NCBI GenBank assembly: GCA_005883135.1
Contig: VAZM01000343.1
Span: forward strand, 1 to 32,624
From: Alphaproteobacteria bacterium
Lineage (GTDB): Bacteria; Pseudomonadota; Alphaproteobacteria; Rhizobiales; Xanthobacteraceae
DNA length: 32,624 bases
Direction: 5' to 3'
Part shown: piece by piece, positions 2,526 through 29,152 of the stretch
Position numbering within the stretch: position 1 is the first letter of the stretch
Layout of the letters: each line of letters starts with the position of its first letter
Program-made: the position numbers and the translations under genes
Notes under the pieces: generated by a model
Told to the model about the DNA's origin: nothing
Seen by the model: the letters and a program-made list of their open reading frames with translations, nothing else
Database searches by the model: none

Positions 2526-3557
2526 ATGCGCCTCCTCAAGCTCACGCGGATCATTCATTCCGCCTCGCTCGTCGCGGCGCTGATCGCGTTGGCCGTGGCG
2601 TGGCCTGCCGCGGCGCAGACCAGCATCAAGTTCTCGCTCGATGGCCGCCTCGAAGGACTGGCCGCGACCTTTTTCCTTCCCCAGGACCGAGGCTATTTCA
2701 AGAGCGAGGGTCTCGACGTCACCGTGGACGAGGCCACGACCGCGCTCGAGCCGATCACCCGCGTGGCGTCGGGCGCCTATGAGATGGCGCTGGCCGACAT
2801 CAACACGCTCATCAGGTATCGCGATCAACATCCCACGTCGTCGTTGAAGGCGGTGTTCATGCTTTACAACAAGCCGCCCTTCGCGATCGTGGCGCGCCGC
2901 AGCCGCGGCATCACCGAACCCAAGCAGCTCGAAGGCAAGAAACTCGGCACTCCGCCCGTCGGCGTCACCTTCGAATGGCCGCTGTTCGCCAAGCTCAACA
3001 ACGTCGATGCGGCGAAGGTGACGATCGAGACCATCGGCTTTCCGGTGCGCGCGCCGATGCTGGCGGCCGGGCAGATCGATGCCGCGCTCGGCTACTCGTT
3101 CCGCCTCTACGTCGATCTCAAGGACCGCGGCGTGCCGGTCGACGACATCGTTCTGATGCCGATGGCGGATTACGGCCTCAAGCTCTACGGCAATACCATC
3201 ATCATCAACCCCAAATTCGCCGCCGAGAAGCCGGAGGCGGTGAAGGGATTTTTGCGCGCCTTTCTTCAGGGCCTCAAAGAGATCGTCCACCGTCCCGCCG
3301 AGGCGGTCGATTCGATCATGCGGCGCGACGACACCGTGAAAAGGGACGTCGAGCTCGAACGCCTGCGCATGGCCATCCGCGACAACATCGTGACGCCGGA
3401 GGTCAGAGCCAACGGTTTTGGCGCCGTCGACTTCGCGCGGCTCGCCGAATCGATCGATCAGATCGGGCTGGTCTACACCTTCAAGGCGAAGCCCAAGGCG
3501 GAGGACATTTTCGACGCTTCCTTCCTGCCGCCCGCGGCAGAACGTAAGGTTCATTGA
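2526..3557 (+). CDS. ABC transporter substrate-binding protein, NMT1/THI5-like (NitT/TauT type), with signal peptide
   Basis: 343 aa; hydrophobic leader ending AAAQ; SIKFSLDGRLEGLAATFFLPQDRGYFKSEGLDVTV typical of NMT1/SsuA-like SBPs. No permease or ATPase gene adjacent. Confidence 0.85.
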   Translation: MRLLKLTRIIHSASLVAALIALAVAWPAAAQTSIKFSLDGRLEGLAATFFLPQDRGYFKSEGLDVTVDEATTALEPITRVASGAYEMALADINTLIRYRDQHPTSSLKAVFMLYNKPPFAIVARRSRGITEPKQLEGKKLGTPPVGVTFEWPLFAKLNNVDAAKVTIETIGFPVRAPMLAAGQIDAALGYSFRLYVDLKDRGVPVDDIVLMPMADYGLKLYGNTIIINPKFAAEKPEAVKGFLRAFLQGLKEIVHRPAEAVDSIMRRDDTVKRDVELERLRMAIRDNIVTPEVRANGFGAVDFARLAESIDQIGLVYTFKAKPKAEDIFDASFLPPAAERKVH

Positions 3558-6940: not shown

Positions 6941-8076
6941 TTCGCGACGGCCGTCCCACCCATATTGAAGATGCCGCCGAGACTCGCGTCCTTCACTTGC
7001 ATCTCGCCGGCCGCGCCCATGAGCTGCATGGCAGTTAATGCGTGCATCGACACGCCGGTCGCGCCGATCGGATGACCCTTGGCTTTCAGCCCGCCCGAGG
7101 GATTGACCGGCAGCGGTCCGCTCTTCTCGGTGAGACCCTCCGCCACAGCGCGCGCTCCTTGCCCTTCCGGTACCAGGCCCATGGCCTCGTATTCCATCAG
7201 TTCGGCGATGGTGAAGCAGTCATGCGTCTCGATGAAGGAGAGGTTGGAGAGCGCGATGCCCGCGCTCGCGAGCGCGCGAGTCCAGGCCTGCGCACAGCCT
7301 TCGAGCTTGAGCACGTCGCGCTTCGACATCGGCAGGAAGTCCTGCACGTGCTCGGCGGCGCGGAAGGCGACCGCCTTCCCCAGCTTGAGCGCCGTTGTCA
7401 CGTCGGCCAAAACGACGGCGGCGGCGCCGTCCGAGACCAGCGAGCAGTCCGTGCGCTTGAGCGGACCCGCCACGCGCGGGTTCTTCTCGCTTTCGGTGCG
7501 GCAGAACTCGTAGCCGAGGTCCTTGCGAATCTGGGCATAGGGATTGCCGACGCCGTTCTTGTGGTTCTTGGCGGCGATGCGCGCCAGTGCGTCGGACTGG
7601 TCGCCCCAACGTTGGAAGTAGCGCGAGGCAATTTGGCCGAAAATTCCGGCGAAGCCGCCGTCGATCTCGGCTTCTTCGCGCACGTAAGAGGCCTTGAGCA
7701 GGTTGCGCCCGATTTCGAGACCGGGCGTCGTCGTCATCTGCTCGGCGCCGACCACGAGCACGATGCGGGCGCTGTTGGCCGCGATCGCCTTGAGCCCCTG
7801 ATGCACGGCGGCCGAGCCGGTGGCACACGCATTCTCGACCCGGCTCGCACGCTTGAAGCGCAGGTCCGCCGAGGCCTGGAGGACCAACGATGCGGTGAAA
7901 TCCTGGGCTGAGAAGCCGGCGTTGAAATGCCCGAGCACGATCTCGTCGACATCCGCGGCGGCAACCCCGGCATCGGCGAGCGCCTCGGTCGCGACCCGCA
8001 CGATCAGGCTCTCGACGGTCTCGCCCTCGAGGCGCCCGAAGGGGGTGTGAGCCCAGCCAACGATGCAAGCGGTCAC
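6910..8076 (-). CDS. Thiolase-family protein (acetyl-CoA acetyltransferase / SCP-x type)
   Basis: 388 aa; VENACATGSAAVHQG nucleophile region, NPSGGLKAKGHPIGATG, NMGGTAVANYVSIL terminus. Confidence 0.9.
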   Translation of the reverse strand: MTACIVGWAHTPFGRLEGETVESLIVRVATEALADAGVAAADVDEIVLGHFNAGFSAQDFTASLVLQASADLRFKRASRVENACATGSAAVHQGLKAIAANSARIVLVVGAEQMTTTPGLEIGRNLLKASYVREEAEIDGGFAGIFGQIASRYFQRWGDQSDALARIAAKNHKNGVGNPYAQIRKDLGYEFCRTESEKNPRVAGPLKRTDCSLVSDGAAAVVLADVTTALKLGKAVAFRAAEHVQDFLPMSKRDVLKLEGCAQAWTRALASAGIALSNLSFIETHDCFTIAELMEYEAMGLVPEGQGARAVAEGLTEKSGPLPVNPSGGLKAKGHPIGATGVSMHALTAMQLMGAAGEMQVKDASLGGIFNMGGTAVANYVSILERIK

Positions 8077-8313
8077 GGCGATCTCCTGTCGATGTCGAGC
8101 TTAAACGTCATTTCCCGCACATTGTCGTCGAGGGGTAACGCCCGCCGCGGTCTAACTTGCCGAATTTTGGACGTTTTCTACCACCATCTACGGCTCTCCG
8201 GGCATCAGCGTGTCCATCCTAGCGCTTTTCGCTTTTGCCTTTCATCCCCGGTGAGCTTAGACCTTTTTCGCTGTGGAGCGTTTCCCGAAGCCAAGGATAA
8301 CAGCCGAGCCGTG

Positions 8314-9771
8314 ATGTCTTCGACGCGATCTTCTCTTGCACGCATGCTCATGTGGGTGAGCCTCGCCTGCGCCGCAACCGCCCTGACGGTGACCCGCGCG
8401 CAGGCCGAAGCGCTACTCGTGATCGATGTCGAGAACGGCAAGGTTCTTTATGCCCACAACGCGGGCAACCCGTGTTATCCCGCCTCCGGCATCCAGCTCA
8501 TGACCTCCTATGTGACCTTGCGCGCGGTCAACGAGGGCCGGATCAACCTCGACACGCCGCTCGTGGTTTCGGCGAACGCGGCGGCGCAGTCGCCGGTGAA
8601 GATGGGATTTGCGGTCGGCACGGTGGTCACCGTCGACAACGCGCTCAAGATGTTGATGGTGAAATCGGCAAACGACATGGCCGTCGTGCTCGCCGAGGGC
8701 GTGGCCGGCTCGATCGAGAGCTTCGCCGACGAGATGAACGCCACCGCGCGGCGCCTCGGCATGATCCAGTCGAGCTTCGTCAATCCCAACGGCCTGCCTG
8801 CCGACGACCAGATCACCTCAGCCCGCGACCTCGCCATACTGGCGCGCGCCATTCTCCGCGACCTGCCGGAATACGATTACTACTGGCACCTGCCCGGCAT
8901 CCGCATGGGCAAGATGGTGCGGTGGAACTACAATACCTTGCTCGGCCGCTATCCCGGGGCGGACGGAATGAAGACCGGCTTCATCTGCGCCTCCGGCTTC
9001 AATCTCGTCGCCACAGCGACGCGTAACGGCAGGCGGCTCATCGCGGTGGTGCTCGGCGCGCCCTCCTCCGCGGGCCGCGCGTTGAAGGCGGCGCAGCTGC
9101 TCGAGCGCGGCTTCAACAGCAACAGCGCCCTGTCGTGGCTGACGGGCCCCTTGGGCACGGTCGAATCGGTGCAACCGGTCGCCGTCGCCCCGACCAACCT
9201 GCGCGACGAGATGTGCGGCGGGCATCGCAAGCGGCCGGCAAGCGAGGACGAGGACGACCTCGTCGCCAACAACAATCCCGAGTCTCCTTATGCGGTCTTC
9301 CTCGCAAGCTTGCACCCGGGGAAGGGGAAGGGCGCTGCGCCGCTGCCGGAGGGCAGGCTGGGCGAGCCGGTCGTCGTCTATACCGGCACCAAGCCGCCGC
9401 CGGCGCCATCGCAGGCGTCAGGCGAATCCAAGCCGGACAAGAAGAAGACCGCCGTGATCAAGCCGGCCGCGCCCAAGGACAAGGATGGCGCATCGTCGAC
9501 GACGTCGAGCGCACCCGCGGCGAAGCCGAAGCGTAAGTCCACGGCGGAGAAGGACGGCGCGTCCTCGACCGCCGCCGTGTCCTCCGGCGATGCGCCCGCG
9601 ACCAAGCCGAAATCGAGGGCGGCACCCAAAGAGGGCGCGAAAGATGCTGCGTCCGCGGCAGCCGCTTCCGGCGATGAACCGGCAGCAAAGCCGAAAGCGA
9701 AGAAGCCTGCGCCGAAGCCCCCGCCGATGACGATTACTCCCGCGGGCGAGCAAAGTCCGCCGGCAAGGTAG
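8314..9771 (+). CDS. D-alanyl-D-alanine carboxypeptidase family (PBP5/DacF-like) protein with degenerate SxxK motif and Lys/Ala/Pro-rich C-terminal tail
   Basis: Start ATG 8314 (GTG 8311 also possible) after AAGGATAA; signal peptide; AEALLVIDVENGKVLYAHNAGNPCYPASGIQLMTSYVTL, VKSANDMAVVLAEG (SxN), GADGMKTGFICASGFNLVATA (KTG). The upstream ORF-track extension to 7927 overlaps the divergent thiolase gene and is unlikely. Confidence 0.85.
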   Translation: MSSTRSSLARMLMWVSLACAATALTVTRAQAEALLVIDVENGKVLYAHNAGNPCYPASGIQLMTSYVTLRAVNEGRINLDTPLVVSANAAAQSPVKMGFAVGTVVTVDNALKMLMVKSANDMAVVLAEGVAGSIESFADEMNATARRLGMIQSSFVNPNGLPADDQITSARDLAILARAILRDLPEYDYYWHLPGIRMGKMVRWNYNTLLGRYPGADGMKTGFICASGFNLVATATRNGRRLIAVVLGAPSSAGRALKAAQLLERGFNSNSALSWLTGPLGTVESVQPVAVAPTNLRDEMCGGHRKRPASEDEDDLVANNNPESPYAVFLASLHPGKGKGAAPLPEGRLGEPVVVYTGTKPPPAPSQASGESKPDKKKTAVIKPAAPKDKDGASSTTSSAPAAKPKRKSTAEKDGASSTAAVSSGDAPATKPKSRAAPKEGAKDAASAAAASGDEPAAKPKAKKPAPKPPPMTITPAGEQSPPAR

Positions 9772-9979: not shown

Positions 9980-11779
9980 ATGGGATTGCTCGATCGGCTG
10001 ACCGCGGAGGTGATCTCCCTCAAGGGCGCGTTGCGCACTCTCAAGCTGACAACCCCCATCGCCAAGAACCCCACCCGCGTCTTTCCGCAAGTGATCCTCG
10101 AGCTTGCCGATAAGTACGGCGACGCGCCGGCGCTCCTCTCGGATCACGAGCGCTTCACCTATCGCGAGCTCGCGGCGCGCTCCAACCGCTATGCGCGCTG
10201 GGCGCTGGCACAGCATCTGCGCAAGGGCGACACCGTCTGTCTGATGATGCCGGGGCGGCCGGAATTCCTGGCCGCCTGGATCGGGATCACGCGCGTCGGC
10301 GGCGTGGTCGCGCTCATCAACACGCACCTCACCGGGACGGCGCTCGCCTATTGCATCAACGTGGTGAGCCCAAAGCACATCATCGTCGCGGCCGAACTGT
10401 TCGACTCGCTGGAAGGCGCGCGGGCGCATATCGCGGGCGAGGGTAAAATCTGGGTTTACGGCGAGCCCGACGCCAATTTGCCGCGTATCGACCGCGCGCT
10501 CGACAACGTCGGCGGCGACAACCTCGCCGCTGCTGAGCTTCCCGCGCTCACCATCGAGGATCGCGCGCTCTACATCTACACGTCGGGAACGACGGGCCTG
10601 CCCAAGGCCGCCAACGTCAACCATTATCGCGTGATGCTGGCGAGCTACGCGTTTGCCGGGGTCATGGACACGCGCCCCAGCGACCGCATGTACGATTGCC
10701 TGCCGCTCTATCACACCGCCGGCGGCGTGGTCGCGACCGGCGCGCTTCTGGTCAACGGCGGGTCGGTGGTGATCCGGGACAAATTCTCCGCGCGCGAGTT
10801 CTGGGACGACGTCGTGCGCTGGGACTGCACGTGCTTTCAATATATCGGCGAGCTTTGCCGTTATCTCGTCAACTCGCCGCCCACTCCGAAAGAGCGGGAG
10901 CATCATTTGCGCCTGGCGTGCGGCAACGGCTTGCGCCCCGACGTGTGGCCGCAATTCAAGCGGCGGTTCCAAATTCCGCAAATCATCGAGTTCTATGCCG
11001 CGACCGAAGGCAACGTCTCGCTGTTCAATTTCGACGGAAAGGAAGGCGCAGTGGGCCGGCTGCCCTGGTGGATGGCCGCACGCTTCCCTACCAAGATCGT
11101 GCGCTTCGATCCGGAATCCCAGCAGCCGGTGCGGGACGAGCGCGGCTTCTGCATCGAGTGCGATATCGACGAGCCCGGGGAAGTCATCGGCAAGATCATG
11201 AAGGACGCATCGAGGCCCGGCCAACGTTTCGAGGGCTACGCCAACGACATGGAGACCAACCGAAAGATCTTGCACGACGTGTTCAAAAAAGGCGACGTGT
11301 GGTTTCGCACCGGCGATCTGATGCGCAAGGCCAAGAACGGCTACTTCTATTTCGTCGACCGCATCGGCGATACCTTCCGCTGGAAAGGCGAGAACGTGTC
11401 GACTACCGAGGTGGAGGAGGCGGTGGGCCGGTTCGACGGCGTTCTGGAGACCAACGTCTACGGCGTGCAAATGCCCGGCCGTGACGGCCGCGCCGGTATG
11501 GCCGCGATCGTCGCCAAGGACAATCTCAACCTCACCGCGCTGCACGATTACATCGCGCAGCAGCTGCCCGAATATGCGCGACCGGTATTCCTGCGCATCC
11601 GCAAGGACAACGACGTCACCAGCACATTCAAGCCGAAGAAGATCAACCTGGTGAAGGACGGCTTCGATCCCGGCCGCACCGCCGACCCGGTCTACTTCAA
11701 CGATCCGCAACGTAAGGCGTTCGTGCGTCTCGACCCCGCACTGTACGAGCGGATCAATTCCGGCGAGCTGCGGCTATGA
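9980..11779 (+). CDS. Long-chain acyl-CoA synthetase, FATP / FadD6-like
   Basis: MGLLDRLTAEVISLKGALRTLKLTTPIAKNPTRVFPQVILELADKYGDAPAL; YIYTSGTTGLPKAANVNHYR; WFRTGDLMRKAKNGYFYFVDRIGDTFRWKGENVSTTEVEEAV. Confidence 0.9.
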   Translation: MGLLDRLTAEVISLKGALRTLKLTTPIAKNPTRVFPQVILELADKYGDAPALLSDHERFTYRELAARSNRYARWALAQHLRKGDTVCLMMPGRPEFLAAWIGITRVGGVVALINTHLTGTALAYCINVVSPKHIIVAAELFDSLEGARAHIAGEGKIWVYGEPDANLPRIDRALDNVGGDNLAAAELPALTIEDRALYIYTSGTTGLPKAANVNHYRVMLASYAFAGVMDTRPSDRMYDCLPLYHTAGGVVATGALLVNGGSVVIRDKFSAREFWDDVVRWDCTCFQYIGELCRYLVNSPPTPKEREHHLRLACGNGLRPDVWPQFKRRFQIPQIIEFYAATEGNVSLFNFDGKEGAVGRLPWWMAARFPTKIVRFDPESQQPVRDERGFCIECDIDEPGEVIGKIMKDASRPGQRFEGYANDMETNRKILHDVFKKGDVWFRTGDLMRKAKNGYFYFVDRIGDTFRWKGENVSTTEVEEAVGRFDGVLETNVYGVQMPGRDGRAGMAAIVAKDNLNLTALHDYIAQQLPEYARPVFLRIRKDNDVTSTFKPKKINLVKDGFDPGRTADPVYFNDPQRKAFVRLDPALYERINSGELRL

Positions 11780-12345
11780 CCGGCGGCGCCGAGTCTGGCA
11801 CAGCCGCGATCGGCCCGGCCGAGGTGCTCGCGTTCTGGCGCGCGGCCGGACCCGACCAATGGTTCGAGAAGAGCGCAGCCTTCGATCTCGAAGTCAGACG
11901 GCGCTTTTGCTCGCTCTGGCACGCCGCCCGCGCGGGCGAGCTGGCGACGTGGGAAGAGACGCCGGAAGGCGCGCTCGCCCTCGTCATCGCGCTCGACCAG
12001 TTTCCGCGCAACATGTTTCGCGGCGACCTGCGCACGTATGCGACCGACAAACTTGCCCGCGGCGTGGCCAGGCGCGCAATCGGTCGCGGCTTCGACCGGC
12101 AGGTCTCGCATCCCGAACGCCAGTTCTTCTATCTGCCGTTCATGCACTCGGAAAACCTCGCAGACCAGGAACGCTGCCTGGAGTTGGCGCGCCGCTACCA
12201 CGATGATGAGTTCGGCAAATACGCCGAGCGGCATGCCGATATCATTCGCCGCTTCGGACGTTTCCCGCATCGCAACCCGATCTTGGGCCGCACCGCGACG
12301 CCGGAGGAGCAAGCCTTTCTCGACAATGGCGGGTTTGCCGGCTGA
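11776..12345 (+). CDS. DUF924 family protein
   Basis: 189 aa; VLAFWRAAGPDQWFEKSAAFD, ALDQFPRNMFRGD, HPERQFFYLPFMHSE, RFGRFPHRNPILGR are DUF924 hallmarks. Overlaps the upstream CDS by ATGA. Confidence 0.9.
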   Translation: MTGGAESGTAAIGPAEVLAFWRAAGPDQWFEKSAAFDLEVRRRFCSLWHAARAGELATWEETPEGALALVIALDQFPRNMFRGDLRTYATDKLARGVARRAIGRGFDRQVSHPERQFFYLPFMHSENLADQERCLELARRYHDDEFGKYAERHADIIRRFGRFPHRNPILGRTATPEEQAFLDNGGFAG

Positions 12346-18627: not shown

Positions 18628-18874
18628 GGTTTACCCTTCCATGTCTCGGCCTCCACGCGCGTGCAAAATATAAATATAACTGCGTGAACACAGTACCAAC
18701 GCGCATGTCGCGTATATTTGTGATCGGGCGCTCGACGCAGAATCCAAAGTCCTGCGATGGGGCGCCGATCTCGCGAGCAAGTGCTTGTCGCTGAGCCATC
18801 CGTCTATCAGGCTATAGAATTTGCCTGCTGCCTGGGTTATAGCAGTTCGATCGGAAGCCGCTCGCGGGCGCCGT

Positions 18875-20755
18875 ATGGTTGCAACGCAATTGCTCGATCG
18901 CGAAGCGCTGCGTCGCAAATCAGCACCGCTGTTGCTGTGCGAGCGAACGCATACGGCCCCGGAGGGGATCGCATTCCGTTCCAAGCACCTGGGCCTCTAC
19001 CGCGAACGAACGTGGCGCGAATATGCGGCGCTGGTCGCGCGCGCGGCGCGCGCCTTTGCCGCGCTTGGACTTCGCCGCGGCGACCGCGTGGCGATCATGG
19101 GGGACGCCTGCGAGGAATGGGTTATCAGCGACCTCGCGGCGCAATCGCTCGGCGCGATTGTCTACGGAATCTACCCGACCGCGTCCGCCTCCGAAGTCGA
19201 GTACCAGATGCGCGACGGCGGCGCCGTGCTGTTCATTGCCGAAAATCAGGAATACCTCGACAAGCTCCTCCCGCTCGCCGATCGACTCCCGGCCTTGAAC
19301 TGGATTGTGGTGATCGACGACACGGCGACCTTCGCCTACCAGCATCCCAAGCTCCGCGCCTATCGTGCCCTCCTCGCGGCGGCTGGAGAGCCGGATCTTG
19401 CCTGGCTCGAGGAGCAAGCCGCGCGACTCGACGCGGACGCGCCCGCCTTCATCGTCTACACCTCGGGCACGACCGGCGCGCCCAAAGGAGCGCTGGTGAC
19501 CCATGGCAAGCATCTCGCGGCGGCCGCCAACATCGTGGATCATTACCCCACCCTTGCGCAAAAGGAGCATCGCACGGTCGGCTATTTGCCGCTTTGCCAC
19601 GTGCTCGGCCGTGACGTCGCGGTGACGCTGCCGCTGATCTCGCGCCTCGTCCCGCATTTCGGCGAGCACGCGGAGGATCTACCGACGACCCTGTTCGAGA
19701 CCGCGCCGACGGTCCTGTTCACCGTCCCGCGCTATCTGCAGCGGTTCGCCGCACAGGTGCTGCTCGGCATCCGCAATTCCGGCGGCGTCAAGCGCGCGAG
19801 CGCGGAAATCGCCATGCAATTCGCGCGCGCACACGCGCGGCGGCGCTGGAACGGCGCGGGGGGCTTCGCCGAACGCGCGCTCTATCGCGCCTGCCGCGCC
19901 GGCGTCTTCCTGCCGCTTCTCAACAAGCTGGGATTTGACCGGCTCGAGCTCGTGGTCTGCGCCGGCGCGCCACTGCCGCCGCAAACGATGGCGCTCTGGC
20001 AGATGTTCGGCATCAACGTCGTCGAAATGTATGGGCAAACCGAGACCGCCGGCGGCATCATCTGCGGCCAGCGTGGGCCGTTTCCGCGCCCGGGCGACGT
20101 CGGAGCCGTGCCGGCGGGTTGGCAGGTCAAGCTGGCAAGCGACGGCGAAGTGCTGGTGAAGAGCCCAGATCTGTTCGAGTCGTATTGGAACAATCCCGAC
20201 GCAACTCGCGCGGTCAAGAACGAGGACGGCTGGCTGCGCACCGGCGACATCGGCGAATGGCACGCCGGGGCGCTGCGCCTCGTCGACCGCGCGCGCGATT
20301 TCATCGTCACGTCCGGCGGCAAGACCGTCTCTCCGTCATTCGTCGAAAACATCCTGCGCGCCAGTCCTTATATCGCGGAAGCGATCGTGTTCGGCCACGG
20401 CCGCAAATATCTCGCTGCGCTCATCGAGATCGAGGCCGACACGGTGGCGGATTGGGCTCGCAGCCACGATGTGGCCTACACGGGCTTCACGAGTCTCGCC
20501 GGCAATCCCGAGGTGGCGCAGCTGATCGGCATCGAGGTCGAGCGGGCGAACGGCGAGCTGTCGCGGCCCGAGCAAATCAAAGCGTTCCGCATTCTCCCCA
20601 AGGCGCTCGATCCGGAGGAGGAGGGCGAACCGATCACTCCGACCCGCAAGGTCAAGCGCCACCTGATGTACGAGCGCTTCAAGACGCTCGTCGAAGAGAT
20701 GTACGATGACCGCGAGCAGCAGCTGATCGCCGCCGGCGCGGTGGAAATCGCATGA
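18875..20755 (+). CDS. AMP-dependent acyl-CoA synthetase (long-chain FadD15-like)
   Basis: MVATQLLDREALRRKSAPLLLCERTHTAPEGIAFRSKHLGLYRERTWREYAALV; FIVYTSGTTGAPKGALVTHGKH; EMYGQTETAGGIICGQ; ITPTRKVKRHLMYERF. Confidence 0.9.
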   Translation: MVATQLLDREALRRKSAPLLLCERTHTAPEGIAFRSKHLGLYRERTWREYAALVARAARAFAALGLRRGDRVAIMGDACEEWVISDLAAQSLGAIVYGIYPTASASEVEYQMRDGGAVLFIAENQEYLDKLLPLADRLPALNWIVVIDDTATFAYQHPKLRAYRALLAAAGEPDLAWLEEQAARLDADAPAFIVYTSGTTGAPKGALVTHGKHLAAAANIVDHYPTLAQKEHRTVGYLPLCHVLGRDVAVTLPLISRLVPHFGEHAEDLPTTLFETAPTVLFTVPRYLQRFAAQVLLGIRNSGGVKRASAEIAMQFARAHARRRWNGAGGFAERALYRACRAGVFLPLLNKLGFDRLELVVCAGAPLPPQTMALWQMFGINVVEMYGQTETAGGIICGQRGPFPRPGDVGAVPAGWQVKLASDGEVLVKSPDLFESYWNNPDATRAVKNEDGWLRTGDIGEWHAGALRLVDRARDFIVTSGGKTVSPSFVENILRASPYIAEAIVFGHGRKYLAALIEIEADTVADWARSHDVAYTGFTSLAGNPEVAQLIGIEVERANGELSRPEQIKAFRILPKALDPEEEGEPITPTRKVKRHLMYERFKTLVEEMYDDREQQLIAAGAVEIA

Positions 20756-27988: not shown

Positions 27989-29152
27989 TCAGCGGGCGTG
28001 CGCGAGTCGCAGCCTGGATTTGTGCCGCCGTTTTCCGCCGTCGGCCACGCGAACGCGGCTCTGTCGGAACGTCGACGCGACATTGCTCCATTCACCGCGC
28101 TGCTGCACATGCGCAGGGTCGTTGCCGGGCATCGGCCGGGTGAGCCCGTATTTCGCACCGTGGGCGTCGATCCATTTCCAGACTTCTTCCGGATTGGTTC
28201 CTTCTACCGCGGTCAGGTCGACCGCGCGGCCGTGGCCATAGCCGCCGGTGCGGCGGCTGCCGCCATGCAACGAGTTGCCGCCGCGCGCCTTGAAGCCGGC
28301 GGCGAGGCGTTGGCGATAATCGTCGCGAAATGCGCTGAGCATCGACCAGTGAAGGCCGTCAGCATCCATGGCGCGTCCCGCGTTGTAGAGCTGCTCCCGA
28401 AAACCCGGATCCATGCCGCCGATCACGTAGTCCTGGAGCGCCAAGCCCATGCGGTTGGCGGCGGCAGGGTCCTTCCAGGTGAAGTCGCCGCTCGAATCCT
28501 TCTTGATCGGCGCGCGCTGGTAGACCTCCCACAGGTAATCATCGATTTCGTCGAGAACCACCATCCCGCGCTTTCGGCGCATGTCCAAGCTTTCCGGCTG
28601 CGCTTGCTCGCGCGACGGAAACGCGACAAAAGCGCCTACCTTGGTCAGTGCGCGCTTGATCAGTTCGCGTGCCGCGGCGGCGACGGACACCGGCGGCTCG
28701 GGATTGACGAAGCGGACCGTTTGTACCGTGCGCGGATAATGCGCGCCGGCGTCCTCCCTTTGCTCGGTGGCATCGGTGGCTTGCGGATGCGCGGGAGGCG
28801 GCGCCGCCCGGCGATAGACGATGGTCTCGTTGCCGACGGGCTCAGACCCGGTCACCACCGGCTCGCCGTCCCGGTAATTCATGATCGCCAACGCCACCAT
28901 GCCTGCGAGCAACGCACAGGCGGCGAGCTTAAGCCCAACAAGGGCGTGAGTGAAAATCGCGCTCAATACGACGACCGGTCCGCGCAGCGCACGCGCGATG
29001 CCGCGCGGGCGCAGCGTCAGCGTGATCGTCGGGTGACGTGACGTCGGCGCCACCGCTGATCGGCGCGGCGCCTGCGGCGGTCGTATGGGAGTTCGTCGCG
29101 CCAGCGAAACGGCGCGCGAATGCCGCACTACAGCGACGAGCTGTCCCGCCAA
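27989..29152 (-). CDS. Membrane-anchored protein with M15 (VanY-like) peptidase-like C-terminal domain
   Basis: 387 aa; one N-terminal TM segment (GLKLAACALLAGMVALAIM); C-terminal AMDADGLHWSMLSAFRDDYRQRLAAG...GGSRRTGGYGHGRAVDLTA...VWKWIDAHGAKYGLTRPMPGNDPAHVQ. Start (TTG 29152) uncertain. Confidence 0.6.
   Translation of the reverse strand: MAGQLVAVVRHSRAVSLARRTPIRPPQAPRRSAVAPTSRHPTITLTLRPRGIARALRGPVVVLSAIFTHALVGLKLAACALLAGMVALAIMNYRDGEPVVTGSEPVGNETIVYRRAAPPPAHPQATDATEQREDAGAHYPRTVQTVRFVNPEPPVSVAAAARELIKRALTKVGAFVAFPSREQAQPESLDMRRKRGMVVLDEIDDYLWEVYQRAPIKKDSSGDFTWKDPAAANRMGLALQDYVIGGMDPGFREQLYNAGRAMDADGLHWSMLSAFRDDYRQRLAAGFKARGGNSLHGGSRRTGGYGHGRAVDLTAVEGTNPEEVWKWIDAHGAKYGLTRPMPGNDPAHVQQRGEWSNVASTFRQSRVRVADGGKRRHKSRLRLAHAR

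Follow-up and report, generated by a model that had tools for sequence, protein, structure and literature searches.

At positions 8314-9771 of the window (the whole stretch of 32,624 nucleotides analysed here), the forward strand carries an open reading frame of 485 amino acids, which ends with the stop codon at 9769-9771. Upstream, no stop interrupts the frame as far back as an ATG at 7927 (7927-9771, forward strand), where the frame overlaps a thiolase gene on the opposite strand; homology to the congeners, which begins at residue 1-2, favours the start at 8314. The gene is an orthologue of the S11 D-alanyl-D-alanine carboxypeptidases. Its product matched the Peptidase_S11 profile (PF00768) over 8392-9063 (forward strand) with 181.4 bits (E 2.5e-53), the cut-off of the profile being 27.6 bits. 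A Sec signal peptide (...TRAQA-EA) was predicted at 8314-8409 on the same strand, and the SxN box (S118-A-N120, 8665-8673) and the KTG box (K220-T-G222, 8971-8979) were both encoded intact on that strand. Signal peptide, SxN, KTG and reading frame were thus found as the original prediction had described them; the gene end at 9420 that it had proposed falls inside the C-terminal tail, the true end being 9771.

The whole-domain match, the signal peptide and the SxN and KTG boxes are shared with the low-molecular-mass PBPs of the DacA/DacC/DacF type (S11, PF00768). The protein differs from these by an S-G-I-Q in place of SxxK, by a low-complexity tail and by the lack of a Pfam call for a PBP5_C domain. 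Among the relatives with solved structures are 4k91, 6osu and E. coli PBP5/PBP6. The tail (9391-9768, forward strand) is rich in Lys, Ala and Pro and had been put forward as a special interaction module. The same tail was encountered in orthologues whose SxxK box is normal, in the congeners as well as in Afipia and Bradyrhizobium, and it is therefore unrelated to the loss of the lysine and gives no evidence for a non-catalytic role.

Codons 8479-8502 read CCC GCC TCC GGC ATC CAG CTC ATG (P-A-S-G-I-Q-L-M), with GGCATCCAG at 8488-8496. S-G-I-Q thus replaces the catalytic S-x-x-K at residues 58-61 (8485-8496, forward strand); the nucleophile Ser58 is kept and the general-base lysine is lost, in agreement with the initial reading of these codons. 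As the mechanism of S11 enzymes relies on the SxxK lysine as general base (PMC9953012), normal acylation is not to be expected of the protein as written. The lysine of the KTG box possibly helps to polarise the serine (PMC9953012), and with Ser58, SxN and KTG intact, a slow but penicillin-binding enzyme could be imagined that uses this or another lysine as its base. Such activity by another route is very improbable: Lys61 is invariant in all orthologues, and W54, V59 and T60 are altered together with it.

The SxxK box was present in the orthologue of all seven congeners, each genome having one clear orthologue. The homologue set comprised 109 homologous loci, corresponding to 100 distinct sequences about 60-86% identical to the protein; the four nearest congeners displayed 78-86% identity. 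SxxK and a tryptophan at position 54 were carried by all 100 distinct orthologues, and Lys61 and Trp54 were invariant across the 109 loci. These orthologues, from Pseudolabrys, Pseudorhodoplanes, Afipia, Bradyrhizobium, Rhodoplanes and related MAGs (60-86% identity), have the same type of tail. In orthologues of the genus and family, Trp precedes the SxxK box (typically PWYPASVTK), whereas PCYPASGIQ occurred only in the window.

A scan of 399 genomes of the family with a degenerate DNA motif recovered the SxxK form in 398. The SxxQ pattern was found in eight of the 399, but in an S11 orthologue solely in the genome of the window; the seven other matches (L160-L165 and L167) were unrelated and displayed no S11 similarity, except for one chance match of 13 residues. 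The class was scanned with a stricter pattern, to which SGIQ itself does not conform; this gave three matches in two of 385 genomes, and real S11 similarity was absent from all three. A conserved SGIQ clade was rejected, the form being absent from the seven congeners, from the 100 orthologues and from any other S11 match in the 399 genomes. The original prediction had read the protein as a candidate pseudoenzyme and had left it to be decided whether SGIQ marked a clade or a single genome; it proved to be the latter. Confined to one assembly, SGIQ does not mark a conserved family of inactive PBPs; it would stem from a sequence error in this place or from activity lost recently in this one lineage.

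The change of the lysine did not stand alone. It lies within an anomalous patch of private, amino-acid-changing substitutions at codons 41-65 (8434-8508, forward strand), which comprises N41, H48, N52, W54C, V59G, T60I, K61Q and A65S. W54C (8473-8475, forward strand) puts a Cys at the position of the Trp that was invariant in the 109 loci. Compared with the four nearest relatives, the 32 bases 8475-8506 displayed five private changes, G>T (W54C), T>G (V59G), C>T (T60I), A>C (K61Q) and G>T (A65S), all five of which alter the amino acid. Eight residues of the sampled domain were never seen in the 100 orthologues; P294T is one of them, and the other seven are located at positions 41-61. Their clustering (six within 14 residues) was matched by none of 20,000 permutations, and in the box region (positions 53-66) every other orthologue had at most one such residue. 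Of 88 positions at which at least 97% of the homologues agree, only W54, K61 and P294 were altered. Nothing notable was encountered at the patch in terms of repeats or hairpins liable to upset sequencing. Since the lysine change belongs to this patch, which the original prediction could not see, a local sequence error must be considered a serious rival.

Counted as private changes relative to three relatives, the patch displayed seven non-synonymous and no synonymous changes (7N:0S), while the same segment in the congeners gave 1N:4S, 0:0 and 0N:6S. Codons 66-290 gave 11N:14S, within the range of the congeners, which indicates that the remainder of the fold is under purifying selection. These counts led to the rejection of general gene decay, and the earlier view that the gene is not decaying was upheld.

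The surroundings of the gene were also considered. Homologues of the adjacent opposite-strand thiolase gene and of the upstream ABC-transporter gene sit in many of the relatives' loci, and the gene is therefore most likely a core orthologue in place rather than a freed duplicate. By homology it is an ordinary, family-wide conserved S11 D,D-carboxypeptidase orthologue by descent, but as written it is a non-canonical S11 enzyme. The contig's other genes with deep homologue sampling (2526-3557, the ABC transporter, the thiolase, the AMP-ligase and 11776-12345) displayed isolated private residues only, without a comparable patch; a contig rich in errors throughout was accordingly not supported. 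Clusters of up to eight never-seen residues per 14 amino acids occurred in 27989-29152 (reverse strand) and 18821-20755 (forward strand), as judged against four to five homologues, which are too few to interpret them. Towards its right end, at about 28-32 kb, the window was generally more diverged from the congeners.

The draft assembly of the host comprises 670 contigs, with a completeness of 84.8% and a contamination of 4.4%. Besides the gene considered here, three complete S11 genes were present in it, their boxes reading PASLTK or PASLSK, together with an S11 gene fragment with a normal PASLTK box at the end of another contig (C70:3-164). One S11 paralogue (contig C156, 1087-2331, reverse strand) starts with unread bases (12 X residues), due to a scaffold gap or to masking. 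Neither a second canonical copy nor a contig-end overlap was found in the host genome, the orthologue being single-copy in the assembly. Gene conversion from a paralogue was rejected, as the S11 paralogues read PAS[LIV][TSA]K.

The observations appear best explained by a local error of consensus or assembly, for which the chances are about even. In one draft genome, some 75-90 bases surrounding the first catalytic box of a family-wide S11 orthologue would have been miscalled, and the true gene would probably encode a normal SxxK enzyme: a secreted, penicillin-binding D,D-carboxypeptidase acting through an acyl-enzyme. Such an error is suggested by the constancy of SxxK and W54 in all seven congeners and 100 orthologues set against one SxxQ form in 399 family genomes, by the restriction of the changes to one patch with SxN and KTG left intact, by the inclusion in this patch of positions not tied to catalysis, by the lack of such a patch in those other genes of the contig that were deeply sampled, and by the incomplete, fragmented state of the assembly. 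Local assembly errors without even one supporting read have been documented in draft MAGs, for instance 13 in a genome of 1.13 Mb (PMC7111523). Against an error, the frame is intact, the patch is free of indels and stop codons, and Ns are absent from the contig. A merging of natural variants cannot have produced the CAG codon, because all relatives inspected have AAG or AAA. About a quarter of random errors would be expected to be synonymous, while none of the seven changes was. Filtering by k-mers would often remove an error-bearing stretch inside a 32-kb contig, which also counts against an error.

A real, recent and lineage-private loss of catalysis, in which an in-frame inactivated allele took on no selected new role, is rather unlikely. 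The loss would be tolerated because three other S11 enzymes remain. The patch, being wholly non-synonymous with no synonymous excess, agrees with what relaxed constraint predicts, and the altered lysine is the one described as the S11 general base (PMC9953012). Relaxation should, however, also have reached SxN, KTG and the remaining domain, all of which look constrained, and three positions of the patch (41, 48 and 52) vary across the family and have no link to catalysis. Error and recent private loss fit the observations about equally well, error being slightly likelier than a real feature.

A selected pseudoenzyme, which would keep the fold and the substrate-binding walls formed by SxN and KTG while having lost acylation, and would bind peptidoglycan or serve as a scaffold or regulator, is improbable. 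It would imply that, in one alphaproteobacterial lineage, fast and localised remodelling of the SxxK segment gave rise to a non-acylating, peptidoglycan-binding or regulatory S11 protein, a doubtful proposition. Purifying selection outside the patch is consistent with it, and there is precedent for a structural role of an inactive PBP from a different PBP class: a catalytically inactive PBP2B can sustain the division of Bacillus subtilis as long as PBP3 is there (PMC5656894). The likeness is confined to the idea of a non-catalytic role, as PBP2B S309A is an engineered mutant of a class B transpeptidase (PMC5656894) and not an S11 carboxypeptidase. No second genome carries SGIQ, so that there is no sign of its maintenance over time, and the tail is not special to the SGIQ protein. 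Being a subset of the real-change case, with the conserved remainder as its sole positive support, the selected pseudoenzyme is possible but unsupported.

Taken as a whole, the original prediction held for the lost lysine and the non-decaying gene; an established pseudoenzyme and a special tail were not supported, the SGIQ form being confined to one genome and the tail being shared by orthologues with normal boxes. The observation itself was confirmed, while the pseudoenzyme reading was weakened to that of an unverified single-assembly variant. If the patch is an error, it shows that a short unsupported stretch of a draft genome can mimic a pseudoenzyme. If it is real, the protein would be a rare natural S11 carboxypeptidase without its catalytic lysine and with the remainder constrained, and it would permit testing of the non-catalytic roles of low-molecular-mass PBPs.
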